DNA of 32,941 nucleotides from a filamentous cyanobacterium CCP3 (lineage in GTDB: Bacteria; Cyanobacteriota; Cyanobacteriia; Phormidesmidales; Phormidesmidaceae). Positions 1-18,548 of the stretch are shown here, one piece after another. Position 1 is the stretch's first letter; each line of letters opens with the position of its first letter. The DNA lies in the NCBI GenBank assembly GCA_003022385.1, contig PYGV01000024.1, forward strand, positions 1 through 32,941. Reading direction: 5' to 3'. The translations under genes and the position numbers were made by a program. Below the pieces are notes generated by a model. That model saw only the letters and a program-made list of their open reading frames with translations. It searched no databases and was not told where the DNA came from.

Positions 1-54
1 AAGCCCTTCAAGTGGAATTACACCGGTAAACCCTTAGTCTCGTGAATGATTGAC

Positions 55-3000
55 TTATTTCTGCCTCAGAGTACTAGTCCACAAAAAGATACTACCAGCA
101 GCATCTAATGCTGCAATTTTTTCACTGTTACCGGATAGCTCAAAAGCAATAATCTCCTCTTCTTCAAACTTAACCAGATCTGGCTTTTGACTGTCAGATT
201 TAGACAGTGCCCATAGCTTAGCTAGCCCATCGTTGGATACAACAATATCAGAGCCAGCTGAGGCTGTAGAAACATGGGAAAATGCCGAACCACTGTTTAT
301 TGAAAAGATTGGCACCTGAATATCTAGTCCTTCCCTTTCAGGGTTTCTCAACTTAATCGATCCATTGACGCAGGAAAAAACAACTAAGTTTTTCTGAGGC
401 AAGAATTTAGGGTTGATGGGTCGACCGCTGCTGCCATAGCACGAACCATCCTCATCTCTTTCAAAATCATAGTTAGCGAAACGACCTTCATGCTGAATAT
501 AAGTAGCATCTTGGCCCGAGAGAATTTCCTCCATCGATATCGTTTGCTCGTAGGGTCTGATTGTGTCGCCATCAATTTCCCATGCTTTAGGTGATGGATT
601 ATCGATGTCGGTTAGAAGCAGTGTTTTTTCGGCTGCGTCAAACTTGAGATCTATCTCATAGTCAAGTGCTCTATTTGCTCCGATGTTGCTCAGGCCGTGT
701 TCTTCATCTAAGACAAATTTACTTAGCCTGTTAGACCAGACCTTTACATTGGTTTCGTCAATAGTAGCAATGTAGGTGCCTTGGGGCGAAAGTGAGGCCC
801 AATTTAGCGACGGCAACCGCATTGTTTCACGGTTTCCATAGAAAGCCTGCTGCAAAGTAAGCGTAGCTTGAGACACCAGTTTTTTGTCTTCCCCTACCCT
901 GCTGTTAGTTTGGATAATACGAGCGGCTTCTAGAGCTTCTAGTAAAGCATCGAGATGTTGACTGTTTTGAAAATTATCCCTAGAGTTGGAGAGCAAGATT
1001 TGTGCATTTCTTTTTTCTGTTTCAATGCGCCTATCTTCGGCCTGCTGTTGTGCAATGACGGCCTGCCGCCGCTGCTCCTCAACAAAAATACCAACCGCTA
1101 TAGACACCGCAAATAGCCCGAGCACCGTTGCCCACCGGAGGCCTACGTTAAAGCGTTTTCTGCCCAAGCTGCGCTGAACGAACTCAGCCTCGGTTGCATT
1201 AAACCAGTGGGGTTCTCGCTGTCTGATTTGCTTGAGCAGGGGCAACCGTGCATCGGCATGCCAGAGAAACGGTACCTTTTGCTCTCGTTTCCAGTCATTG
1301 GCAGCAGGGGTGAGGCGGCGCTGCAGCAGCAGCTTTTCTCGCTCATCTAGGGCATCGCCTTGACCCTGAGCTTTCCAAGGCAACCAGCCTTTGCGGGTGG
1401 AACTATCTATCGCGTCTGCATGGTTGTCTACTTCTAGCCACTGCAGCAGTCGGGGCCAACCCTCCACCAGGGCATCGTGGGCGGGTTCCACGTAGGGCTG
1501 TTCGTCGGCAGTGGTGTCGCCCACCAGCAGGCGGGCCTCTTTAAACCGAGTCAGCACCTGCTGCACTCTAGCCCGTTCGGGTTCAGCGTACTCCAGCTCA
1601 CTGAGCAACACCTGACGTCGGGTGTTGCCCGTGCCGCTGGTAGCCACCAGGCGCAGCATCATATGGCGAATGGTGTCGGCAAACGCCGGGTCGGCATCGA
1701 CTAGGGCGTGGTACTCCTCTTCGGCTCGGTTGACCAGAGCCTGTTTGATGCCGCCCAGTTCTTCGTAATCCGCTTCTGTAATCGCTCGATTGGTGCGTGT
1801 GGCAGCGTTGCGTAAATACTTTAAAAACAGCTCCCGCAGGGTGAATGAGAGCAGCGGTAGCGCTCCCGGCATTTCGCTGACTTCATCGATCAGGCGATCG
1901 ACCAGGCTGGGCGGTTCAAAGTACATCACCTTGGCCGAGGCCGGGGCCTCGATTGCCGCCCGCAATTCCTCCCGATTCATGGGGCGAATGGTGAAGCGAT
2001 CGCAGGCCCAGTGCTCTTCCAAGGGCGAGTTGCGAAACTGAGGTTCGAAGTCTGACCGCAGGGTAAGAATGACGTGGAACTGCTCGTCCTGGCGATCGAG
2101 CAGCTGATCCAAAATCTCTAAACATTGCTGCCGCTGTGTTCCATCACGACAGAGGGAAAACAGCTCTTCGGCCTGATCGACCACTAACAAAAGCTGCCGA
2201 TCGGGGTTTACCTGTCGCCACTGTTCCAGGTTGCTGTTGAGGTAATTGGCCCAAGTATTAGGATTTAGATCAGCTAACGTTGCAGCTAAATCCGGCCCAG
2301 GCAGGGTTTGCAGAATGGCTTTTAGCGGGGCCACCCCAGGGCGCATAATCGGCAGCACCTGCCAGATAGGTTGACCATCAGGGTTGAGGTCTTGCTTGAG
2401 GGCGGGCACCAGGCCCGCTTTGACCAGGCTCGACTTACCCGTGCCCGAGGCCCCCAGCACAATCGTCAAAGGGTGGGTTTCAGCAAATGCTTGCAGGTCT
2501 TGAATGAGCTGTTTGCGGCCAAAAAATAGGTGCTGGTGCTGCTCTTCAAAGGCCTCTAGCCCTCGGTAGGGGTTCGCCGCTTCGTTGAGCTTGGGGGCAC
2601 TGGGCAAATCGAGTTCGCGGCCCGGCACCATAAAAACAAATTCTCCCTTGCCGTGGTTTTTGAGCGGCCACAGTCCTGGGGTTTGGCGCACGGCATGGGT
2701 AGTGGTATCGGGCTCAACGGCATCCCTCAGGTACTGGTACAACTCGGTGGCGGTGATCACGCCGTCCCCGGCGGGTTTGCCCTCGCGGGGTGGGGGGCTG
2801 GCATCGGCCAGGCTGTTGGCCTGCAGCGCCTTGATCAGGGCTTCAGCAAAGGGGGAGTGCCGCCCAACAGTGCCGCGATGGTCTTTAATCGACAGAGCAT
2901 CCATCGCCTCTTGATCGTCGGCGGAGGAGGTGATTACCTGCCAGGCGGGGTCAGCGAGAAAGCGGGCAAAGCGCTCTTTATGAATGACTTGAGGAATCGG

Positions 3001-3450
3001 TGACAGACGGCGAGTAGCCGACCAGCGAAAGGCCCCCGCAAAGCAGCAGTCAAAAATGCCTAAAAAATGGCGGCAAGTCAGACCCGTGAGGGCATCGTGC
3101 ACCAGGGTCATGGGCAGATAGGTGGCGCTATCGCCCAGTTTGGCATCCTGGGGAATCAGGTAGCCCTCGGGGCCATCGTCCCCATTGAAGGCCAAACCGT
3201 GCCCAGCAAAGTAAAACAGCACGCGATCGTCGGGTTGTACCAGGGCGGGGAGTTTGTCGGTGAGGAGCGATCGCAGGGTAGCCAAACTCACCTGCTGGTC
3301 GCGCAGCAGCACCACCTGGTAGCCGTGGTCAGCCTTCAGCACATGGGCTAGCTGGGTGGCATCATTGACGGCGGTTTTGAGCGCCGGAATCCCGTTTTGG
3401 TATTGATTAACACCAATAATGATCGCAATACTGCGCTTAAACTGTGCCAT
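55..3450 (-). CDS. Caspase-like (orthocaspase) STAND-NTPase membrane protein with degenerate WD40 tail
   Basis: 1131 residues. An N-terminal C14 caspase-like domain (about 5-275) has the catalytic His in YFAGHG (H84) and Cys in DCCFAG (C136). A STAND-type NTPase module (nSTAND1-like) starts at NPYRGLEAF (about 293). It has Walker A GASGTGKS (333-340), Walker B LLLVVDQAEE (420-429) and the downstream EPAHDALVEGW motif. One membrane segment lies at about 772-790, followed by a charged coiled-coil stretch. The last 250 residues hold only about four weak WD40-like strands (for example NVKVWS and IFLW). The family is thought to couple signal sensing by the C-terminus to NTP-driven protease activation, in cell death or antiviral roles; here that is inference. 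It is transcribed divergently from a longer paralogue. The sensor-coding end (about 55-1000) is visibly more AT-rich than the rest and lacks HIP1 sites. Start ATG at 3450 begins directly before the conserved domain. Confidence 0.9.
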   Translation of the reverse strand: MAQFKRSIAIIIGVNQYQNGIPALKTAVNDATQLAHVLKADHGYQVVLLRDQQVSLATLRSLLTDKLPALVQPDDRVLFYFAGHGLAFNGDDGPEGYLIPQDAKLGDSATYLPMTLVHDALTGLTCRHFLGIFDCCFAGAFRWSATRRLSPIPQVIHKERFARFLADPAWQVITSSADDQEAMDALSIKDHRGTVGRHSPFAEALIKALQANSLADASPPPREGKPAGDGVITATELYQYLRDAVEPDTTTHAVRQTPGLWPLKNHGKGEFVFMVPGRELDLPSAPKLNEAANPYRGLEAFEEQHQHLFFGRKQLIQDLQAFAETHPLTIVLGASGTGKSSLVKAGLVPALKQDLNPDGQPIWQVLPIMRPGVAPLKAILQTLPGPDLAATLADLNPNTWANYLNSNLEQWRQVNPDRQLLLVVDQAEELFSLCRDGTQRQQCLEILDQLLDRQDEQFHVILTLRSDFEPQFRNSPLEEHWACDRFTIRPMNREELRAAIEAPASAKVMYFEPPSLVDRLIDEVSEMPGALPLLSFTLRELFLKYLRNAATRTNRAITEADYEELGGIKQALVNRAEEEYHALVDADPAFADTIRHMMLRLVATSGTGNTRRQVLLSELEYAEPERARVQQVLTRFKEARLLVGDTTADEQPYVEPAHDALVEGWPRLLQWLEVDNHADAIDSSTRKGWLPWKAQGQGDALDEREKLLLQRRLTPAANDWKREQKVPFLWHADARLPLLKQIRQREPHWFNATEAEFVQRSLGRKRFNVGLRWATVLGLFAVSIAVGIFVEEQRRQAVIAQQQAEDRRIETEKRNAQILLSNSRDNFQNSQHLDALLEALEAARIIQTNSRVGEDKKLVSQATLTLQQAFYGNRETMRLPSLNWASLSPQGTYIATIDETNVKVWSNRLSKFVLDEEHGLSNIGANRALDYEIDLKFDAAEKTLLLTDIDNPSPKAWEIDGDTIRPYEQTISMEEILSGQDATYIQHEGRFANYDFERDEDGSCYGSSGRPINPKFLPQKNLVVFSCVNGSIKLRNPEREGLDIQVPIFSINSGSAFSHVSTASAGSDIVVSNDGLAKLWALSKSDSQKPDLVKFEEEEIIAFELSGNSEKIAALDAAGSIFLWTSTLRQK

Positions 3451-3612
3451 AACTAGCTGTCAAACCGAGATGCACTTATGCAGAAAAGCGAGATCTAAAG
3501 GTGCGAGATGTTTTGCCTGAGTTGTTAACTATGGTCAAAACTACAGCAACAGTACAATACCTTTTTAACCGTGCCTAATCAGGTTCAATAACTTTTACTC
3601 AAGTCGCCATCA
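3451..3612. promoter_or_regulatory. Shared intergenic region of the divergent caspase genes
   Basis: These 162 bp separate two divergent start codons, so both promoters must lie here or inside the genes. For the plus-strand gene, TACAAT at 3553-3558 is a plausible -10 box; the best -35 candidate, TGGTCA at 3532-3537, is only 15 bp away, so the promoter is weak or activator-dependent. No convincing -10/-35 pair was found for the minus-strand gene. The TTGACA on that strand (3463-3458) lies too close to the ATG to serve. No strong Shine-Dalgarno precedes either ATG. Confidence 0.35.
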
Positions 3613-6600
3613 ATGGATAACGGCAGCAAAAGCAAGGCCTGGAATGCCAATCGAACTAGCTTCGAACGCAACCTAGCCATTGTCATTGGCATTGACCAGT
3701 ACCAGCACGACAGCATCGCCAACCTGAGCACTGCCGTTAGCGATGCCAGCGAGATCGCAGCTCTGCTCAAGCATTACGACTACACTCCCTATCACCTGTG
3801 CGATCGCAAAGCCACCCTGCAAAACCTCAAAACCCTCTTTCAGGACGTGCTGCCTAACCAGCTCAAGCCCGGCGAGGGCGATCGCCTGCTGGTGTACTTT
3901 GCTGGGCACGGTCTGCCTCGCTCTAACGACAGTGGGCCAGAGGGCTACCTGGTGCCCCACGATGCCGACCCCACCCAGCCCGACTCATTTTTGGCCATGG
4001 GTGAGCTGTACCAGGCCCTGGCCCAGCTTGAGTGCCACCACCTGCTGGTGATTTTAGACTGCTGTTTTGCAGGCACCTTTCAGTGGGCGGGCAGCCGCAA
4101 GGCCGTGCCCGTGCTTGAAACCATTCAGCGAGAGCATTACTACCACTTCATTCGCCATCCGGCCTGGCAGGTGCTTACCTCCTCTGCCCACGATCAAGAG
4201 GCTCTAGACGTAGCTCGCCTAAAAGAGAACAATCGTCAGTCGGTGGCGGGGCTAAATCAGCCCCATTCGCCCTTTGCCCTGGCCCTTTTAGAGGGTCTAA
4301 AACCTGGCGAAAATGCCCAGCCCAGCAAAGCCGATCTGTACCCCGACGGGGTGATCACAGCCCACGAGTTGTTTGTCTATTTGCAGACGCGGGTTAAGCA
4401 ACTGTCCGGTGACGAGCAGGCTCCCGGCATTTACCCCATGCGGCGCGACTTCGACAAGGGCGAGTTCATTTTTACCTCCCCCAACTTCAGCCCCCAATCG
4501 TTGGCCAAGGCCCTGGCACTGAGCGCAGACAACAACCCCTACCGGGGCCTGAATTCCTTTGATGAACGCCACGCCAAGTCTTTTTTTGGTCGGCAAGCGC
4601 TGATCGATGAGTTGGCAGATCGCCTTGCCCAGCCCGATCAGGCGCTGACCGTGGTGCTGGGGGTATCGGGCTCGGGCAAATCGAGCCTGGTCAAGGCCGG
4701 GTTACTGCCCCGCCTGCGCCAGCAAGAGCCACAAACCGGGGCCGGTCAGCCTCAAACCTGGCGCATCCTCGACCCGATGCGTCCGGGGGAGTTTCCGTTG
4801 GGGGCACTGGCTCAGGCGCTGTTACCCCTGTTGAGCGCTGATCCTCTCTCCAGGGATGACCTGGAAACGGTGAGTCGGCAGCTTCAGCAAGACCCCCAAT
4901 ACCTCAGCCGCGCGATCGCCGCCTGGAGCCAGCAGCAGCCAGGGGCGAGACTTGTCATGGTGATCGATCAGTTTGAGGAAGTGTTGACAACTGGACGAGG
5001 CGTTGGCGACACCTCTCCGATGGAGCACCATACAGCCGCCCAGCCTGCGATTGCTGAGGCCACCCATGGGCAGCGGTTTTTAGAGGCGCTTGGCATTGCG
5101 ATCGCCGATCACCCCCAAACCCTGCGCCTGGTACTCACCCTGCGCTCTGACTTCGAGCCTCGCTTTTTGCGATCGCCCCTAGAACCCCACTGGCAGACCG
5201 CCCGGTTTCCGGTGCGGGCCATGACCTCCGACGAACTGCGCCAAGCCATTGAAAACCCGGCCCTCAAGCAGGCGATCTATTTTGAAGAACTCAAAGACGC
5301 CGCAGGCAACCCTACCGGCAACTTGGTCAGCCAGCTGGTCGATGAAGTAGGCCAGATGCCCGGTGCCCTGCCGCTGCTGTCGTTTGTGCTGAGCGAACTG
5401 TACCTGCGCCTCTACCAGCGCTGGCAGCGCGATCGCAGCACCGATCGCACCCTACGCTTTGCCGACTACTACGCCCTCGGCGGGGTCACTGGCGCACTCA
5501 CCTACCGTGCCAACGAAGAGTACAACGCCCTCGATGCATCGCAGCAGAAGACCCTGCGTCGCGTCATGCTGCGGATGATCGCTATCGGCGAAGGGGGCAT
5601 TGCCCGCCGCCAGGTGCCCCAATCGGAGTTGGTGTATGCAGACCCAGCAGAAAACGAGCGGGTGCAAACGGTGCTCGAGCGGTACTCCACAGCGCGACTC
5701 ATCGTTGAGGGCTCAAACTCCCAGGGCGAACCCTACGTTGAACCAGCCCACGACGCTTTGGTACAGGGCTGGGATCGGCTATTGGTGTGGAAAAACGAAG
5801 AAGAAGAAAACACCCTCTTACAGCGCAGGCTCACCCCAGCCGCGACGGAATGGAAAACAGTTCAGAGCAAGGCACAGCCATCCAGGTCACCTATCCAGGT
5901 AGATATTCTGATCAATGGGCTAGATAGCAGGTTGTATCGGGTTGAAAATTTGCTGCAGCAGTCTGTTGCCAGGGTGCTGCGATTGGGGATGCGATCGCAA
6001 CAGCAGCCCCGTTCAGCAGACCAACCAACCCAGTTTCTCTGGAGCAGCAACCCTTATTTAGATGTCTTAAACGAGAAGCTTCGCTCTAACTGGCATTGGC
6101 TAAACCGGGTCGAAACTGAGTTTGTGCAACAAAGCGTTTTGCAAAAACGCCGTAATTTAAGCTGGCGGTGGCGCATTACCCTGGGCGTTATTTTAGGGCT
6201 CAGCGGCCTGACAATTGCCGCCCTAATCGGCCAGCGCAATGCCCAAATCGGCCAGATTCAGGCCTCCATAGAATCCGCTGATGCCAACTTTCGCGGTGGG
6301 CAATCTTTTGAAGCATTGCTCGATGGTTTGAGCGCTGCCAACACTCTGGAGCGTCCCCTGTTGCAGGTGTGGCCACCCAATCCTCAATTGAAGAAACAGC
6401 TCCACGGAACCCTGCAAAAAGCGACCTTTTCCGTACGGGAAAGCAATCGCTTAACCAGCCAGACGCAAGGTACCACCCGCAGCAGACTGAGTCCCGATGG
6501 ACAGCTTGTTGCCAAAGCCGATGCCCTTGGCAACCTTTCTCTCTGGGACTGGAATGGACGGCAACAAGAGCCAGCCCCGTGGCCCACCGAACAAACATCC

Positions 6601-8304
6601 GTGATGAATGTGGCCTTTAGCCCCGATGGTAAAACGATCGGCACGGCCGGGTCAGACAGCAGCGTGCGCCTGTGGAATTTGCAGGGACAAGCAACCGGAC
6701 CAGAACGCCTAAGCGGCCACTCAGATATGGTCAAGGGCATTAGCTTTAGCGCCGATGGACAGTGGATAGCCACCTCAGGCGTTGACACAACCGTTCGCCT
6801 GTGGACGGCCCAGGGCGAGCCAGTGTGGCCTACCCCAACTGATCGAGCGACCGAGATCAAAGGCAAAGGACACTGCAAGGATGTTTGGAGCGTGGTGTTT
6901 AGCCCCGATAGCAAAACTCTGGCCAGCGCCTCCGACGACGGCACCTGGCGGCTTTGGGATTTAACGGGCCGTCAATTGGCAATAGTTTCTATCAGTGCAG
7001 ACGGGCAAGGGCAAGTTTCAACTGGTTCAGACCCATGTCAAGATCTGTTTGCTGATTCGCTAAATGAGCTGCACACTATTCGCTTTAGCCCCGACGGTAA
7101 CAGGGTGGCTACAGCGGGTAGAAATGGCATGATCTACCTGTGGTCAGTACAGGAAGAACGCCTGTTGGCCACCCTGCAAGGGCACCGGGGCCGCATCTGG
7201 CAGGTAGAGTTTAGCGACGATGGTAAACAACTCGCCAGCGCTTCGGCTGACGGCACTGTGAGGCTTTGGCCGCTAGACCTGCTATCAGAGCAACCTCCTG
7301 AGAAGCCTGGGGCTCTTGAAACCAACCTCATTTTGCAGGGGCACCGAGGCCCTGTTCGCCACGTGAACTTTAGCCCCGATGGGCAACACCTAATCAGCAG
7401 CGGCGACGATGGTACAGTTCGTTTTTGGACTTTAAGAGGGCAGCCGTTAGAACCTCTCGACGCCACGCCAAGCACTGGCCTGAATGCATCTTCAAATAAC
7501 GCTCAGCAAGCCATAACGATCAATCAACAAAACGGCATCTTCTATCTAACCAGTGAGCAGGGACAGCCCATTGCAACGTTTGACAGTAACTCAGCCGTAG
7601 AACAGCGGTGGAATGCCCTAACTCTAAGCCGCGATCGCCAGCAGTTAGCCGGGGCCAGCGCAGATGGCGTCTATTTGTGGAACATAGAAAACGGTCGCAT
7701 TACCCAAGTCTCTTCTTCTCCTTTTCGGCAGCATGTAGGGCCAGTGCTCGATGTTGCCTTTAGCAACGATGGACGCTACCTGGTCAGCTCAGGCGAGGAT
7801 GGCACGATCCGCATTCGAGATTTAAACAACGCAAGTGATAGCCAAAGAAACCTCCTGCCGGTTTACGATGCTCAGGTAACATCTATCGACTTTAGCCCCA
7901 ACGGTAGATTTTTGGTCAGTGGCGACGATCGCGGCAACGTACAGCTATGGGACTGGCAGAACCGTCGGGAGTTTGCCGATTGGCAGGCCCATGCCAACTC
8001 AGGGATTGAAACAGTCGAATTTAGCCAAGATAGTACGTCGCTCATCACTACTGCTGAAAACGGCAGTCGCGAAGAATGGCCGTTAGAGAATTTTGATCAG
8101 CTGCATGCCAGAGGCTGTCAACTGGTCGGCAATTATCTAAATTCTCGCCAGCCACGGCAAAGCCTAAATAGCAGCCAACCGTTGCTGGGTCAAACCATAA
8201 GTCAATGGCTGAAAGGCTTGAATCTTCTTGCGATCGCATCACCATTTAGCGACGCAGACAGCAGCGCTTACGATCGCGATCGATCGGTGTGCGAAAATCG
8301 CTGA
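3613..8304 (+). CDS. Caspase-like (orthocaspase) STAND-NTPase membrane protein with WD40 propellers
   Basis: 1563 residues. The caspase-like domain (about 18-285) has catalytic His in YFAGHG (H99) and Cys in DCCFAG (C151). The STAND NTPase module starts at NPYRGLNSF (about 308), with Walker A GVSGSGKS (350-357), Walker B VMVIDQFEE (448-456) and EPAHDALVQGW. A single membrane helix lies at about 855-875. From about 955 to 1520 there are 11-12 WD40 repeats, many with the FSPDG...ASADGTVRLW pattern, enough for two small propellers; one repeat near 1300 is degenerate. The predicted topology puts protease plus NTPase on one side of the membrane and the WD40 region on the other, unless the helix is peripheral. 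The role is probably sensing and regulated proteolysis (programmed cell death, stress or phage defence), inferred from the family. HIP1 sites are frequent, so the gene looks resident. It is the divergent paralogue of the gene at 55-3450. Confidence 0.92.
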   Translation: MDNGSKSKAWNANRTSFERNLAIVIGIDQYQHDSIANLSTAVSDASEIAALLKHYDYTPYHLCDRKATLQNLKTLFQDVLPNQLKPGEGDRLLVYFAGHGLPRSNDSGPEGYLVPHDADPTQPDSFLAMGELYQALAQLECHHLLVILDCCFAGTFQWAGSRKAVPVLETIQREHYYHFIRHPAWQVLTSSAHDQEALDVARLKENNRQSVAGLNQPHSPFALALLEGLKPGENAQPSKADLYPDGVITAHELFVYLQTRVKQLSGDEQAPGIYPMRRDFDKGEFIFTSPNFSPQSLAKALALSADNNPYRGLNSFDERHAKSFFGRQALIDELADRLAQPDQALTVVLGVSGSGKSSLVKAGLLPRLRQQEPQTGAGQPQTWRILDPMRPGEFPLGALAQALLPLLSADPLSRDDLETVSRQLQQDPQYLSRAIAAWSQQQPGARLVMVIDQFEEVLTTGRGVGDTSPMEHHTAAQPAIAEATHGQRFLEALGIAIADHPQTLRLVLTLRSDFEPRFLRSPLEPHWQTARFPVRAMTSDELRQAIENPALKQAIYFEELKDAAGNPTGNLVSQLVDEVGQMPGALPLLSFVLSELYLRLYQRWQRDRSTDRTLRFADYYALGGVTGALTYRANEEYNALDASQQKTLRRVMLRMIAIGEGGIARRQVPQSELVYADPAENERVQTVLERYSTARLIVEGSNSQGEPYVEPAHDALVQGWDRLLVWKNEEEENTLLQRRLTPAATEWKTVQSKAQPSRSPIQVDILINGLDSRLYRVENLLQQSVARVLRLGMRSQQQPRSADQPTQFLWSSNPYLDVLNEKLRSNWHWLNRVETEFVQQSVLQKRRNLSWRWRITLGVILGLSGLTIAALIGQRNAQIGQIQASIESADANFRGGQSFEALLDGLSAANTLERPLLQVWPPNPQLKKQLHGTLQKATFSVRESNRLTSQTQGTTRSRLSPDGQLVAKADALGNLSLWDWNGRQQEPAPWPTEQTSVMNVAFSPDGKTIGTAGSDSSVRLWNLQGQATGPERLSGHSDMVKGISFSADGQWIATSGVDTTVRLWTAQGEPVWPTPTDRATEIKGKGHCKDVWSVVFSPDSKTLASASDDGTWRLWDLTGRQLAIVSISADGQGQVSTGSDPCQDLFADSLNELHTIRFSPDGNRVATAGRNGMIYLWSVQEERLLATLQGHRGRIWQVEFSDDGKQLASASADGTVRLWPLDLLSEQPPEKPGALETNLILQGHRGPVRHVNFSPDGQHLISSGDDGTVRFWTLRGQPLEPLDATPSTGLNASSNNAQQAITINQQNGIFYLTSEQGQPIATFDSNSAVEQRWNALTLSRDRQQLAGASADGVYLWNIENGRITQVSSSPFRQHVGPVLDVAFSNDGRYLVSSGEDGTIRIRDLNNASDSQRNLLPVYDAQVTSIDFSPNGRFLVSGDDRGNVQLWDWQNRREFADWQAHANSGIETVEFSQDSTSLITTAENGSREEWPLENFDQLHARGCQLVGNYLNSRQPRQSLNSSQPLLGQTISQWLKGLNLLAIASPFSDADSSAYDRDRSVCENR

Positions 8305-8706: not shown

Positions 8707-9359
8707 ATGCCGAAAGACCTGCAATACTACGCTAAAAAGTTTGCGACGCTGAACGTCAACAAGCACCGAGAGCGGGGGGCGGCACCGCATAAGCCTGTGC
8801 TGTTGATTGCGGTGATGGAGCTGATCGAGCAGGGCAAGCTGCGGCTCAATCAGGTGCCGCTGTTGCCGGAGCTGATTTCGACGTTTTTGAAGTACTGGCG
8901 CAATCTGGTGAAAACCGACCACCGCTCGGATATTTCGCTGCCGTTTGTGCATTTGACGGGCCGCTCGAATGAGATTGAGCAGCTATCATTAATCGATGAG
9001 TTTAAGGCGGTGAAAACTCAGCTTTTGCAGGAGGGTGGGGCGACCTACAGGGTCGAAGACCTGAAGGATGAGGAAAATATTGTCGTCAGAAATGGGGCGT
9101 TTCGCAAGATTGTGGTGTCGCTCTATGACCAGCGCTGTGTAAGAACCACCACTGGGCGTTTGACCACGGCTGGTTTGGGGTGGATGACGATTACCGAATT
9201 GTGATTCCGCAGGAGCGGTTTATGGAGGAGGCTGCGGTGGAGAGTCGGGAGATGGTGGCGTTTAGGGGAGAGGCGATTGGACTGCCGGGGGAGCGGGAGT
9301 TTTGGCCGAGTTTGGAGGGGTTGAGATGGCATAGGGAAAGGTGGGGGATTACCCTTTAA
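8707..9359 (+). pseudogene. HNH restriction-type endonuclease, broken by internal deletion and frameshift
   Basis: The first 144 codons encode the N-terminus of an HNH endonuclease of the type that begins KHRERGAAPHKPVLL, up to the first zinc or core Cys in LYDQRC. The frame then shifts. The C-terminal part continues in another frame from about 9132 as ALCKNHHWAFDHG and runs to a stop at 9357-9359. Between RC and ALC the whole central HNH core (the His-Asn motif) is missing. The junction bases GCGCTGTG read as R-C in one frame and A-L-C in the other, which suggests deletion between short direct repeats. The 165-residue product that is still open lacks the active site. The gene would have been cotranscribed with the OLD-type gene 57 bp downstream. 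Confidence 0.85.
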
Positions 9360-9416
9360 TCTGAGACAGATAATATTATCAAGGGCACTTACAGTTTGTT
9401 TGCCGCGAAAAATCAA

Positions 9417-10979
9417 ATGCTGAACTTGCAAAATTTAGATAAAGTCATAAAAAAACTGGACGAGGCAAATCCCATGGACTTCAAAAATCCTGGGGATAGC
9501 TTCAAGTTCTTCACTTGCAAAATACACATACAAGAGTTTCGCAATATCAGAGATCTCACCCTGACATTTGAGCATCCAGCAACAATTCTATCAGGTAGCA
9601 ATAAAATTGGAAAGACTAGCATCCTCCTTTTAATAGCTTGCAGCCATTACGACTTTTATAGGTATGATTCAACAAAGCCTGAAACAGTATTAAAAAGGCA
9701 TTCCTGGGGAGATGTTATGCCTTTCACCAAACAAGAAAATGCCATTCGAGATTATGAGTATCATTTGTTTTGGCGTGTTGGCAAAGATTTTAGAGATGGC
9801 AAGGCTAGAAGGTTGCATACAAGCAAATCTTGGAGCGGTGTGGGTAAAGCGACACAAGATAGAAAGAAAGCAAAAATCAGAGATAGACATGTGAGGCTAG
9901 TTGACTTAGAACGAATATTGCCGGCCCGCAATTTCTCTAATAGTTTGATGAGAAAGATTGCTAAAGCAGAACAGGTTAGACTGTCAGAGGATATAGAAAA
10001 AGCTTTTTCTTACATATTTTGCCTAGCAAATCAACCTGAAATCTACAGAATTGGCTCACACGTTAATAAGTTTGCCTATTTAATACACAGTGGCATTTCA
10101 ACGTATTCAAGTTATAATGCGGCTACAGGTGAAGAGTCCATCTTGAATATACTAGTAGACATATTTGAAACGCCTTGCAATTCCCTTATTCTGATTGATG
10201 AACTCGAGGTAGGTTTTCATCCTGATATTCAAAGGAGGCTAGCGGACATCATCAAATATGTTTCCTGGAATCACAAAAAACAATTTATAGTAACGACCCA
10301 CTCTCCAACCCTGTTGTCATCGTTTGCGCCAAGCTCAAGAAGGTTTTTGGAAAAGCAGGAAGACGGAACTACAAAGGAAAAAAGAAAAATATCTGTCAAT
10401 GCTGCTTTCTCAAAAATGGATTCTAATGCTTATCCTTTGCTAAATTTATTCTGTGAAGACAAAGAGGCATTTTTTGTCATTAAGAATCTCCTTATTTTAA
10501 TGAATGAGAGATTCTTGCAATTTGACAAACTGGTCAATGTGATTAGATCAGGCCCAGCAGATAGAGTGAGAAACGATTACCTGACTCACAAGAGGAATTA
10601 TGAACAGTATAGAATAAAGATTGGCTATGCTTGCGTTTTTGATGGAGACTATCACGAAGACGAGAATTATTCTTGTCTAGTAAATAGCAATAGTGATTTT
10701 GCCTTTTTCTTGTACCCCTATGATAAATTTGAAAAAATTCTTGTGCAAACTTTCTTGCATGAAAAGCCTAACGAGCGCTTGGAAACTTCACTCCAGTATA
10801 CAAACCATCATGGCCTGTTTCAGGTAATGTGTGATATTGGATTGACTGCGACGCCTGACCAAGCACTAAATAGGTGTTGGGATATGTTTGTTAAAACAGA
10901 AGATTTTGGCACTTTAAAGGATCGTTTTTGTGACTTTATTATAAAAACGACGAAATATTTTTCTGATGTTAGCGACTAG
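9417..10979 (+). CDS. OLD-family ATPase-Toprim endonuclease
   Basis: 520 residues from ATG 9417. The N-terminal ABC-type ATPase has Walker A GSNKIGKT (60-67), a signature-like ATGEES near 237-242, Walker B LILIDELE (257-264) and an H-loop TTHSPT (293-298). The C-terminal half has Toprim-type acidic residues, CEDKE (about 346-350) and FDGD (D409/D411). This order is that of overcoming-lysogenisation-defect nucleases, including the GajA-like class; these act in phage defence by cutting DNA. No GajB-like helicase follows. The upstream neighbour is a broken HNH gene. Start is uncertain: TTG 9396 is possible, and ATG 9474 has a better ribosome site (GAGG 8 bases upstream). The gene is visibly AT-rich and has no HIP1 octamer, which suggests recent transfer. 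Confidence 0.8.
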   Translation: MLNLQNLDKVIKKLDEANPMDFKNPGDSFKFFTCKIHIQEFRNIRDLTLTFEHPATILSGSNKIGKTSILLLIACSHYDFYRYDSTKPETVLKRHSWGDVMPFTKQENAIRDYEYHLFWRVGKDFRDGKARRLHTSKSWSGVGKATQDRKKAKIRDRHVRLVDLERILPARNFSNSLMRKIAKAEQVRLSEDIEKAFSYIFCLANQPEIYRIGSHVNKFAYLIHSGISTYSSYNAATGEESILNILVDIFETPCNSLILIDELEVGFHPDIQRRLADIIKYVSWNHKKQFIVTTHSPTLLSSFAPSSRRFLEKQEDGTTKEKRKISVNAAFSKMDSNAYPLLNLFCEDKEAFFVIKNLLILMNERFLQFDKLVNVIRSGPADRVRNDYLTHKRNYEQYRIKIGYACVFDGDYHEDENYSCLVNSNSDFAFFLYPYDKFEKILVQTFLHEKPNERLETSLQYTNHHGLFQVMCDIGLTATPDQALNRCWDMFVKTEDFGTLKDRFCDFIIKTTKYFSDVSD

Positions 10980-11544: not shown

Positions 11545-11772
11545 TTAGATTTCGTCCCCTACATAGAGTTTTACGAAAGCTTCGGCGGCTGCGGGGTTCA
11601 TAGATTTAAGCGCTCTGACAATCTCAACCACTGTTTCAGCCGAGGGATCTCGCTTCTCGTTGGCCCAACGGTAGACATTGTTGCGTTCGACATCCAGCAC
11701 GGCGGCGAGGCTGTACTGGCTGATGTTGTAAGTCTCAAGCACTTGCTTGAGGGCGGCTCCTGCTTTTCCCAT
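11545..11772 (-). CDS. Small XRE-family (Cro/CI-type HTH) regulator
   Basis: 75 residues, almost all one helix-turn-helix domain: LKQVLETYNISQYSLAAVLD, then NNVYRWANEKRDPSAETV, is the classic XRE layout, with recognition helix at about 30-40. The ATG at 11772 is preceded by AGGGG close to the start. It is divergent from a small unknown gene, with 111 bp between the two ATGs; that gap holds a strong promoter and a palindrome that could be this regulator's operator. Related XRE proteins control toxin-antitoxin or phage-like modules. The target here is unknown. Confidence 0.8.
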   Translation of the reverse strand: MGKAGAALKQVLETYNISQYSLAAVLDVERNNVYRWANEKRDPSAETVVEIVRALKSMNPAAAEAFVKLYVGDEI

Positions 11773-11818
11773 GCCCCTATCTTTTCAGAGGATCATATTC
11801 TCTCCAGCATCTAAAGGG

Positions 11819-11846
11819 TTGACGTAGTCAAAACTGACGCTATAAT
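11819..11846 (+). promoter_or_regulatory. Sigma70-type promoter with overlapping palindrome
   Basis: TTGACG (11819-11824), 16-bp spacer, then a perfect TATAAT (11841-11846). The start codon it serves is at 11884, with AGGAG at 11873-11877. The -35 box lies in the perfect inverted repeat TTGAC-GTA-GTCAA (11819-11831). TGACG recurs at 11835 and 11861. A regulator bound to the palindrome would block the -35; the divergent XRE gene is the obvious candidate. Confidence 0.7.
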
Positions 11847-11883
11847 CTTGGCATCCATTTTGACGCCAAAGCAGGAGATTTCC

Positions 11884-12216
11884 ATGTCATCTGACCCCAC
11901 CGCTCGCTACAGTGCCCGCATCCTCAACCCCGAATCCGCTGGCCCAGTCCACCTCGAACTCACCCTCAAGCTCCACAGCTACCCCCACCCCGATCGTCAA
12001 AGACCGGCCCTTAGGGGCCAACGCGAACCCGTCAAAATCCTCGTCATTGGCAGCAAGCGCTCGGTTAGCTCCATCGTCGTTGCCCTGCACCAGCTCGGCT
12101 TTGCCGAAATCTTCGAGTGGACAGACTTTCTCAGCGCCCCCAATGCCGACAGGCCGTTGCAGTTTGCGCCTGATGAGGTGATGAAAGCCCTGGTGAAGTA
12201 TTTGCCAAGGGAGTAG
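11884..12216 (+). CDS. Small conserved-looking protein of unknown function
   Basis: 110 residues. The start ATG 11884 is chosen because AGGAG lies 6 bases upstream and a consensus promoter lies 37 bp further up; the in-frame TTG at 11848 would lie inside the transcription start region. The sequence has a beta-rich first half (VHLELTLKLHSY) and then KILVIGSKRSVSSIVVALHQLGF, an alternating strand-helix pattern. There is no signal peptide or membrane segment. I do not recognise the family. It is expressed divergently from an XRE regulator and may be its partner or target. Confidence 0.7.
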   Translation: MSSDPTARYSARILNPESAGPVHLELTLKLHSYPHPDRQRPALRGQREPVKILVIGSKRSVSSIVVALHQLGFAEIFEWTDFLSAPNADRPLQFAPDEVMKALVKYLPRE

Positions 12217-12256
12217 AGCCGTGGGGTGAATGAGGCGATGGGGGTATTTCTCATCT

Positions 12257-12462
12257 TTATCGCTTCTTTTTTTTGCCCTTCTTGCGGCTAGATTTAGCCC
12301 CATCGCCAAAACCAGACTTGTTCGGCAATTTTTGGGAGTCTGACTGGGCCACAATATCTTTGAAGGCGGGAGGCTTGTCGAACCAAAAAGCCTCTCGCTT
12401 AATGGGTAGCCCAGCTCAGCAGCACTGCCAGTCTTGGGAGCTAGTACCTTTGGCCTCGCCAT
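12257..12462 (-). pseudogene. Possible frameshifted small basic-tailed protein gene
   Basis: ATG at 12462 opens MARPKVLAPKTGSAAE. A shift near 12410 to another frame continues as GLPIKREAFWFDKPPAF and ends in the basic tail SSRKKGKKKKR-stop at 12257. Neither frame alone looks like a gene, while the joined 69 or so residues do. A single missing base around 12410 would explain it. The A-run coding the Lys tail is itself prone to slippage. The family is not recognised. It could instead be two unrelated open stretches. Confidence 0.35.
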
Positions 12463-12578
12463 AGCTTAGAAGACTATCTAGTGGAGCGCTGTAGGTTTGG
12501 TTGAGCATTCTAGGTGCGGAAATAGCGACACTGGGCGGTGACTATTTTAGGTTACCTTTAGGATCGCGAATCAAATAA

Positions 12579-12630
12579 TGTGGGATAGCCGTCCCGGCTG
12601 TCCACGGTCAGGCAAGATGCCTGACCCACA
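12579..12630. repeat. Nested palindromic repeat (two hairpins inside an outer stem)
   Basis: Outer arms TGTGGG (12579-12584) and CCCACA (12625-12630) enclose a hairpin GATAGCCG/CGGCTGTC (about 12584-12600, one mismatch) and a perfect 9-bp hairpin GGTCAGGCA-AGA-TGCCTGACC (12606-12626). Such GGCAAGATGCC-type elements are widely dispersed in cyanobacterial genomes. No gene is visible between 12463 and 12721. Confidence 0.75.
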
Positions 12631-12721
12631 AGAATTGCACCTTAAAAAATCCACGTTCCCTAGCCACCCGTGATCGAGCGAGCGATCACCAGGCGTAAAG
12701 TGATTAGGCACAACCTTGGCC

Positions 12722-13549
12722 CTAGTGCTCCATCAGGCGAGCGGTGCCCGACACCCGAATGGAACTGCCGGGGGTGGGCGAAATTTCGGCCCGCAGGCGC
12801 GATCGCATGCCCATATCTTCGCCCTGTACAATCTCGATCGCGCCGCCGTGGGGCCAGCCCAGATCGCGCAGGTACCCGGCCAGTGCCGCCGTGGCTGCCC
12901 CGGTCGCCGGGTCTTCGTACACGCCGCCTGAGGCGAACGGGTTGCGGGTATGAAACTGCTGCGGTGTCTCGGCGTAGACCCAGCAAATGGTGACCAACCC
13001 GGCGCGGTTCATCAGGTCGCGACCGGCGGCCAGGTCGTAGCGCATGGCACTGAGGGCGGCGCGGGTCTTGAGCCCCAGCACCAGGTGGTCGGCACCGCCG
13101 TGGGCCAAAGCAGGCGGCAGCTTGGGGTCAAGTTCGGCCTCGCTGTAGCCAAACAGGTCGAGCACCTCGGCCACCAGCGGCGGCGGAGCGGCGGCACTGC
13201 GGGTAGGCGGCGACTGCAGCGCGGCAGACAAAGGGCTGCGGTGCCCCTCAACGGTAATGTCGGCGGCGTTGAGGCGCAGGGCAAAAACGCCATCGCTCTG
13301 CTGGAGGGCCAGCGCTGCTCCCAGGGCGATCGTGGCGTGGCCGCAGAAGGGCACCTCAGACTCGGGCGAAAAGTAGCGCACCCGCCAGCCAGAGCCCACC
13401 GGGGCTGCAAAGGCCGTTTCTGAAAAGCCGACCGCTGCCGCAATTTGCCGCATCTCGGCTGCGCTGGGATGGGTTTCTGCGATGAGCACGCCCGCCGGGT
13501 TGCCGCCGGTATCGCCATCCGAGAACGCCGCGATTTTGAGAATGTCCAT
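12722..13549 (-). CDS. PhzF-family isomerase/epimerase-like protein
   Basis: 275 residues. The two-lobed diaminopimelate-epimerase-like fold is indicated by FSDGDTGGNPAGV near the N-terminus, the catalytic Glu in GFSETAF (E44), EVPFCGHAT in lobe one and GGVYEDPATGAAT in lobe two. PhzF enzymes isomerise small acids such as dihydrohydroxyanthranilate, but most family members have unknown substrates, and no phenazine genes are nearby. Start ATG 13549 is preferred over an in-frame TTG at 13564 because GGAG precedes it at about 8 bases. It follows the RMD1-family gene on the same strand. Confidence 0.9.
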   Translation of the reverse strand: MDILKIAAFSDGDTGGNPAGVLIAETHPSAAEMRQIAAAVGFSETAFAAPVGSGWRVRYFSPESEVPFCGHATIALGAALALQQSDGVFALRLNAADITVEGHRSPLSAALQSPPTRSAAAPPPLVAEVLDLFGYSEAELDPKLPPALAHGGADHLVLGLKTRAALSAMRYDLAAGRDLMNRAGLVTICWVYAETPQQFHTRNPFASGGVYEDPATGAATAALAGYLRDLGWPHGGAIEIVQGEDMGMRSRLRAEISPTPGSSIRVSGTARLMEH

Positions 13550-17888: not shown

Positions 17889-18548
17889 ATGCGCGAGTTC
17901 TACGATATTGTCCAAGCCGTAACGGATGAGCAGCGCCACGTATTGGGCGAACTTATCGGCTCTGGGTTTGGTAGCCAGCCAGCTACACTCTGCGATCACA
18001 TCAAATATTTACGGGCTGGCACCATTGGGCAACTGTTCTGGCAGTCGTCGTGGAAGCAGGTGGTTACGGATGTGGCTGACCACGTGGGGATTGACTGGTT
18101 AGCGCTGCTGACCGGGCGACGGTGGCAAGAACTGCCTACCCAAGAGATTGAAGCAGCAGTGGTAGCCAAGCTGTTTCACGACATATTTGACCAGCTTTCG
18201 CCCGAGCAGCAGCAAAAGGTCGTTATGGAGATGCGGCGGGAAAGCGATGACCCTCGCTTAGAATCATTGCTGCTGGGGGGTGGCGCAATGGCGGCGGCCA
18301 AGATGAGTGGGTTTGGCGTCTATTTGATGGCCAGCACAGTGTTGGGTGGGCTAACTAATGCGCTAGGCCTGACGCTGCCGTTTGCAGTGTATATGGGAAT
18401 GAGTCAGGCGATCGCCCTGGTATTAGGCCCAGTCGGGTGGGCGGCCTTAGCAGGCGGAGTCATTTGGACACTGAACCAACCTAATTGGGAGAGGTTAGCA
18501 TTGGGAGTAGTTTATGTGTCACTCCTACGCAATACAGGGGAAGCTTGA
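17889..18548 (+). CDS. YaaW-like protein with hydrophobic glycine-rich C-terminus
   Basis: 219 residues. A helical soluble N-terminal half (to about 125), with EAAVVAKLFHDIFDQLSPEQ and an acidic run, is followed by a hydrophobic Gly/Ala-rich region at about 130-200 (MSGFGVYLMASTVLGGLTNA, VLGPVGWAALAGGVIWTL). Layout and the final VYVSLLRN resemble the YaaW/DUF3944 family of unknown function. The hydrophobic part looks like membrane-inserting hairpins. It lies 63 bp upstream of a serine hydrolase on the same strand, so the two probably form one transcript. Family assignment is by pattern only. Confidence 0.55.
   Translation: MREFYDIVQAVTDEQRHVLGELIGSGFGSQPATLCDHIKYLRAGTIGQLFWQSSWKQVVTDVADHVGIDWLALLTGRRWQELPTQEIEAAVVAKLFHDIFDQLSPEQQQKVVMEMRRESDDPRLESLLLGGGAMAAAKMSGFGVYLMASTVLGGLTNALGLTLPFAVYMGMSQAIALVLGPVGWAALAGGVIWTLNQPNWERLALGVVYVSLLRNTGEA

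Follow-up and report, generated by a model that had tools for sequence, protein, structure and literature searches.

Caspases joined to WD40 repeats are well described in cyanobacteria. The WD40 metacaspases, or orthocaspases, combine a caspase with 7-15 WD40 repeats and sometimes a NACHT domain (PMC2853523, PMC7475262), and the two genes studied here, A and B, likewise combine caspase and WD40. Adjacent WD40-metacaspases were noted in Anabaena and Nostoc in 2010 (PMC2853523), and a cytosolic p20, a transmembrane segment and an outer WD40 part were proposed for six orthocaspases in 2020 (PMC7475262). According to the same sources, some alpha metacaspases lie between two WD40 or GUN4 metacaspases, an arrangement similar to the module presented here. 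Metacaspase-NACHT-WD40 proteins were described in 2012, together with one metacaspase that bears lipase and amidase domains (PMC3501461); in 2021, nSTAND1 was named (PMC8195603), and WD40, AAA_16 and Peripla_BP_6 were counted among orthocaspase domains (PMC8283722). Unlike the orthocaspases as described in these sources (PMC2853523, PMC7475262), the present module has a lipase-bearing partner caspase and, in one case, a fusion. No description of a caspase-lipase adjoining a caspase-nSTAND1-WD40 receptor was found in the literature among the matches listed, which cover parts of the sources.

The window, i.e., the whole stretch of DNA analysed, is contig C321, with 32,941 bases, from a draft genome of 5.8 Mb and 519 contigs; C253 is another contig of this genome. 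In the VMAP and MoxR-vWA ternary systems, a caspase also has a neighbouring alpha/beta-hydrolase, with which it is argued to cooperate (Kaur 2020, PMC7159879), yet in the present case the hydrolase accompanies a caspase that adjoins a caspase-nSTAND1-WD40 receptor. No Pfam match to MoxR ATPase, vWA or VMAP was obtained among the 18 window and 8 C253 proteins scanned. The two-gene EACC1-caspase system (System 4 in Kaur 2020, PMC7159879) resembles A and B in its N-terminal caspase, its variable C-terminal modules, STAND included, and its membrane association, but A and B score 69.4 and 71.2 bits against an NCBIfam cut-off of 140, i.e., half of it. Given the 162 bp between the divergent genes are too short for an EACC1-like gene upstream of either, membership in this system was rejected on both the score and the absence of an EACC1 gene 5' of the caspase gene. 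As for AVAST (Avs), PADLOC presented no Avs match for A or B at E 0.001, and only its caspase and HEAT-ARM_XIII models matched.

In Canu (CanABC; Tuck 2025, PMC12799240), a caspase with an Ig-like fold activates, with CanB, a pro-effector, which provides a precedent for a caspase activating an effector. The structural model of a partner caspase described below matches MALT1 caspase-Ig structures and is in this respect similar, although the effector is here lipase-like instead of a nuclease, the receptor is STAND-WD40, and the activation is putative. None of the 26 proteins of the window and C253 that were scanned with Pfam matched the gated MBL nuclease of Canu. The Apaf-1 apoptosome is a STAND NTPase with two propellers that drives caspases. 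The sensor of B matches its fold; unlike in Apaf-1, the caspase is within the receptor itself, and a membrane helix stands between switch and sensor.

Domain architecture of genes A and B

As described in the initial annotation, the window has two large divergent open reading frames: gene A, on the minus strand (55-3450, 1131 aa), and gene B, on the plus strand (3613-8304, 1563 aa), separated by an intergenic region of 162 bp (3451-3612). From open reading frame analysis, Pfam and helix prediction, A consists of caspase, nSTAND1, membrane helix and a partial propeller cut by an insertion element, and B of caspase, nSTAND1, membrane helix and WD40 propellers. The proteins are 38% identical over 1021 aligned columns.

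The caspase domain of A (C14, residues 6-246, 2713-3435, minus) scores 62.1 bits in Pfam and has its His in AGHG and its Cys in DCCFAG, as located by Pfam and alignment. That of B (residues 22-261, 3676-4395, plus) scores 63 bits with the PADLOC caspase model and 71 bits in NCBIfam; C14 is not among the Pfam matches listed for B, which are the best 25 of 49. The caspase His and Asp-Cys-Cys and the Walker A and B residues are invariant in an alignment of 15 sequences that includes A and B, and a motif search found AGHG, DCCFxG and Walker A in 83 of 87 relatives. Hence, the dyad and Walker motifs are kept in both genes, and both caspases are predicted to be active C14 peptidases with an intact His-Cys dyad.

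With 332 bits for A (residues 294-697, 1360-2571, minus) and 324.6 bits for B (residues 309-752, 4537-5868, plus) against a gathering score of 27.1 in Pfam, both proteins are nSTAND1 STAND NTPases. One hydrophobic helix follows nSTAND1 in each, in agreement with the membrane segment claimed earlier: residues 773-791 in A (1078-1134, minus), with five K/R on the N side and two on the C side, and residues 855-873 in B (6175-6231, plus), with five and one.

The sensor of B is a beta-propeller of approximately 13-14 blades (residues ~955-1491, 6475-8085, plus), identified from motifs and an AlphaFold model. It scores 246.7 bits for WD40 in Pfam and presents 12 FSPDG-like blade motifs; counted by eye, the family consensus has 14 blade motifs and the model has strands for ~13-14 blades, values close to the 11-12 repeats initially proposed. 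The model (pLDDT 75.9, pTM 0.51) matches, among many propellers, the highly repetitive propeller 2ymu and Apaf-1/apoptosome chains. The first part of the A sensor (residues 792-1125, 76-1077, minus) is in the window and, in Pfam, this part of A had no WD40 match at E 0.001; the other 535 residues, attributed to C253 (L142:76-1683), score 35.6 bits for WD40, with a cut-off of 27. On its predicted domains, an N-terminal caspase and a C-terminal WD40 region, B fits the cyanobacterial WD40 orthocaspases, as does A by way of the putative half on C253.

Interruption of gene A and its putative continuation on contig C253

At window positions 1-77, one finds the end of a multicopy insertion element, followed at 74-77 by its CTAG target. 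These bases are identical (77/77) to the edges of contigs C74, C290 and C374, and the sequences diverge directly after. The reading frame of A enters the element, so its last six codons and stop are element sequence. Contig C253 starts with 77 different bases, common to C47, C216, C449 and C479. Starting at the target and reading inward, both types of edge agree for 15 bases (CTAG and an 11-base inverted repeat) and then differ. Such edges are typical of a multicopy insertion element that duplicates a 4-base target; the element is known here from its edges, and we take it to be IS5-like.

When the same genome was searched with the sensor end of G050_A, the nearest relative, the lost half of A was found at C253:175-1680 (37% identical, E 5.7e-49). 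The frame in question covers C253:76-1683 with 535 codons, its best blastp match is G050_A (31% over 529 aa), followed by G019_A, and its coding phase at CTAG equals that of A. The 1125 codons of A before the target and the 535 after it add up to slightly more than B and less than the uncut G050_A and G019_A, which have 1753 and 1793 aa. The C-terminal end of an A-type sensor also has a much shorter match at C281:7973-8233, minus (87 aa, 37%, E 4.8e-13), which counts against the uniqueness of the A tail. The sensor half on C253 is very probably the continuation of A through one element; the case is strong, yet the link is inferred, given the C253-type edge recurs on four other contigs and none of the contigs crosses the element or the junction.

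The initial annotation contrasted the repeats of B with a short degenerate tail in A and suggested a two-component module (for example, sensor plus amplifier, or receptors for different triggers). Given the element cut A within its sensor, the short tail is not confirmed as a property of A, and the inequality is very probably an artefact of element insertion at a contig end; unequal sensors as a design were rejected on the element edge at window 1-77 and the in-phase half on C253. An insertion-split gene that poses as an unequal sensor at a contig edge is a trap for reading short tails in draft genomes. The cut A keeps, by its predicted domains, caspase, switch and helix, but it is probably non-functional as a sensor in this genome, with B left in charge. 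In genome G050, a second A-lineage receptor (L040 12015-13820) is also broken, in that case by an IS110-type transposase gene.

Past the A remainder, C253 encodes, convergent with A, an LCAT-like hydrolase/lipase of 480 aa (1698-3140; Pfam LCAT 55.8 bits, cut-off 21) and a second caspase of 719 aa (3356-5515). Relatives of both adjoin receptors in genomes G281 and G027, with identities of 69% and 49% for the caspase and 69% and 62% for the LCAT-like protein, respectively; the order in G027 is caspase, LCAT-like protein, B-lineage receptor. In Nodosilinea nodulosa, a caspase of the C253 type (68%) is in the same stretch as the receptor. The window locus very probably continues on C253 with the second caspase and LCAT-like lipase, and the probable order in window orientation is caspase, lipase, reversed and split A, and B. 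A caspase-hydrolase in one open reading frame was not found in the contigs of the window genome, which has the split form only.

Contig C253 (L142) also encodes, on the minus strand, an eCIS_core protein of 639 aa (8981-10900) and a contractile injection system (CIS) tape-measure protein of 414 aa (11699-12943), open at the contig end. A CIS cluster is thus near the caspase-lipase-receptor locus.

Receptor lineages and partner caspases in other genomes

A first contig scan with A alone as query confirmed no relative. In the scan of named genomes, the best 80 of 505 confirmed candidates yielded 76 loci, a sample that leans to close relatives. All 76 contain a receptor, and in 49 of them the fetched stretch also includes a second caspase: 31 with caspase, middle domain and hydrolase in one open reading frame, 9 with caspase and middle domain only, and 9 of the 719-aa type. 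The partner caspase is upstream of the receptor in 46 of the 49 and on the same strand in 46. No partner was found in the fetched stretch of the other 27 loci, of which 13 have at least 4 kb upstream, several begin near a contig edge, and at least one (L162) has broken caspase-hydrolase pieces. When only loci with at least 4 kb upstream are considered, 45 of 58 have the partner. Hence, the caspase-nSTAND1-WD40 receptor is most commonly accompanied by another caspase, which often has a lipase-like part, and not by a second receptor. The window locus is a local form of this recurrent module, a caspase, often hydrolase-fused, beside such a receptor; as a two-caspase lipase module, its genome appears to fit by having partner caspase and hydrolase near the receptor, with a putative linkage through the split A.

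Both the GHG and the D-C/S-C motif are present in 45 of 50 partner caspases, the Cys motif as searched being absent in four and the His motif in one. Among 33 hydrolase segments, GYELGG replaces the serine motif in two, and two have no recognisable motif. Peptidoglycan-active relatives (VanY / PG-binding, lysozyme, LGFP) were found in about 12 loci, or 14 with weak matches, a count that covers overlapping sets of 40 and 76 stretches.

In a set of 96 related genomes, the window genome included, 11 have the receptor (E 1e-60), 12 have the caspase-hydrolase (E 1e-200) and 7 have both, against approximately 1.4 expected (Fisher p 1.8e-5, from a hand-made table that ignores kinship); a binomial figure, which depends on a chosen background rate, is given no weight. 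In G015, G033, G038 and G049, the fetched stretch has caspase-hydrolase-type genes and no receptor. In a class-wide draw, a receptor of the A/B kind (E 1e-80) was found in 30 of 388 genomes, again with the window genome included.

Partner and receptor are joined in WP_104910174.1, a single annotated CDS of 3057 aa on plasmid pNLP1, typed as conjugative, of a lichen Nostoc (L125 6108-15281, i.e., NZ_CP026693.1 109107-118280). The order is caspase, middle domain, hydrolase, caspase, nSTAND1, helix and a periplasmic-binding-protein domain, the latter in place of the WD40 sensor. Both dyads and an AHSMGG motif are present; the searched Walker A pattern was not found, though nSTAND1 matches. Genes related to transposition were observed elsewhere: TniQ, ATP-binding and DDE-transposase genes lie at least ~5 kb from two caspase genes on plasmid pNsp_b of Nostoc sp. 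ATCC 53789 (L234 1-3175), and a Mu-type transposase (L040 4289-6097) lies ~1 kb from the G050 cluster. Tn7-like carriage of caspase modules is possible.

Trees were built on the caspase-nSTAND1 core. With 28 sequences, A groups with G019_A and G050_A (support 100/100), and B with G027, G019_C and G050_C (96/91). The latter group was recovered at 88 in a 95-row tree that carried a long-branch warning, while a 17-row tree placed B apart from the C lineage; given two very long branches in the 17-row tree, we relied on the 28-row tree. A recent duplication of A into B was discarded, as the two are in separate lineages.

A-lineage genes were found in three genomes (the window genome, G019 and G050), and the locus also has a B/C-lineage gene in all three. 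One caspase-hydrolase lies between the A and C-lineage genes in G019 and G050, all on one strand; G027 has a B-lineage receptor and no A in the stretch. Two full receptors occur in 10 of the 76 named loci, with both on one strand in nine. One full receptor was counted in the other 66, a criterion that undercounts where the second is partial or beyond the stretch (G050/L157). As a check, the initial annotation proposed to look for conserved co-occurrence of the pair in divergent orientation. These data suggest the A/B pairing is to some extent real, since each of the three genomes with an A-lineage gene has a B/C-lineage gene at that locus, but orientations differ, and a pair conserved in divergent orientation was rejected. 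Unrelated insertions kept adjacent in no other genome, the outcome named as contrary to the proposal, are not what G019 and G050 present, although three related genomes are few, and they may reflect one shared ancestral event.

Within the A lineage, cores are 71-72% identical and sensors, where alignable, 27-38%, which indicates sensors change much faster. In A (window 55-1100), G050_A, G019_A and G050_C, GC3 is ~0.6 at first and drops to 0.3-0.45 at the membrane helix or shortly past it, and a foreign origin of these four sensor halves is possible. Such a fall is no family rule: among 64 named receptors, GC3 falls by more than 0.1 at the sensor boundary in 5 and rises by more than 0.1 in 11.

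Proposed pathway and alternative explanations

A membrane helix is present in 84 of 91 receptors, and 81 of these 84 have more K/R on its N side; the seven with no clear helix include two that are cut short. This charge distribution, together with the periplasmic-binding domain of the fusion, points to a sensor outside the cytoplasm. The model of a partner caspase-hydrolase, of modest confidence (pLDDT 70.3, pTM 0.38), has matches to metacaspases and MALT1 caspase-Ig structures, and weaker ones to lipases; the sequence match of this protein to lipases is weak as well (E 0.0015 at best).

From the sequence data, we consider it fairly likely that A and B serve as two receptors in a suicide (conflict) module that is anchored in the membrane and based on caspases, with a full cascade, which is proposed on the basis of topology, sensor fold and partner matches. 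By sequence, the caspase and nSTAND1 are on the positively charged side of the single helix, with the propellers on the other. A ligand beyond the membrane would bind the propeller, the STAND domains would assemble, and this assembly would activate the receptor caspase. The latter would then cleave or release the partner caspase and/or the lipase, although no cleavage site was identified. Finally, the lipase, plus a cell-wall enzyme in some genomes, would break the envelope and cause cell death. A and B would be alternative receptors that respond to different triggers and share one executioner.

In more general terms, one may tentatively propose an outward-facing caspase pathway of two tiers, in which interchangeable STAND receptors with propeller or periplasmic-binding sensors would be the initiator caspases, and the caspase-lipase, sometimes with a peptidoglycan enzyme, the lytic executioner, shared by receptors of several lineages. 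If this is right, cyanobacterial programmed cell death, long debated from caspase homologues, gains a testable genetic unit (receptor caspase, partner caspase and lipase), in parallel to the apoptosome and executioner caspases. The A/B pair itself is real, its unequal sensors very probably are not, and the more telling partner is very probably the neighbouring caspase and lipase.

The two-component module initially suggested, taken as a fixed device in which a short-tailed A would be the amplifier or transducer of the full sensor B, agrees with the presence of both lineages at one locus in all three A-carrying genomes found. We nevertheless regard it as very improbable: the short tail comes from the element insertion, the uncut A relatives have 1753 and 1793 aa, G027 does without an A in its stretch, and a single full receptor was counted at 66 of the 76 named loci, even if this criterion undercounts. 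The two receptors could also be independent defence genes gathered in one hotspot with no common pathway, as two-receptor loci mix lineages (in at least 6 of 10, sequences of other genomes come between the two copies in the tree) and transposition-related genes are near some loci. This would not account for the single caspase-hydrolase flanked on one strand by the A and C-lineage genes of G019 and G050, nor for a receptor-partner linkage that is frequent, almost always in one order and fused once, and we see it as a minority possibility.

A third reading accepts lysis, but as part of the cell's own programme (development, stress or release of contractile injection systems) instead of antiphage defence. 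On C253, the A tail ends ~7-11 kb away from the eCIS_core and tape-measure genes, thylakoid CIS of Anabaena fire only upon lysis or ghost-cell formation (PMC8894136), and LypABC, which is CARD-NLR-like, is required for lysis by gene-transfer agents (PMC13236601). However, divergence is far greater in sensors than in cores, in line with an arms race, and blastp found no match to the two CIS proteins of C253 in the other loci examined, so the CIS neighbourhood may be incidental and was discarded as a conserved feature. Regulated lysis of this kind seems improbable, and the suicide module with alternative receptors is the reading we retain.

Two further observations concern the window. A low-GC region at 8707-10979, on the plus strand, contains a 165-aa open reading frame with no Pfam match, which presumably resembles the front of an HNH-type protein, followed by a 527-aa AAA_15/PtuA-like ATPase. 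At 17889-18548, also on the plus strand, a 219-aa protein with no Pfam match presents PADLOC JukA matches of 44.9 and 36.2 bits.
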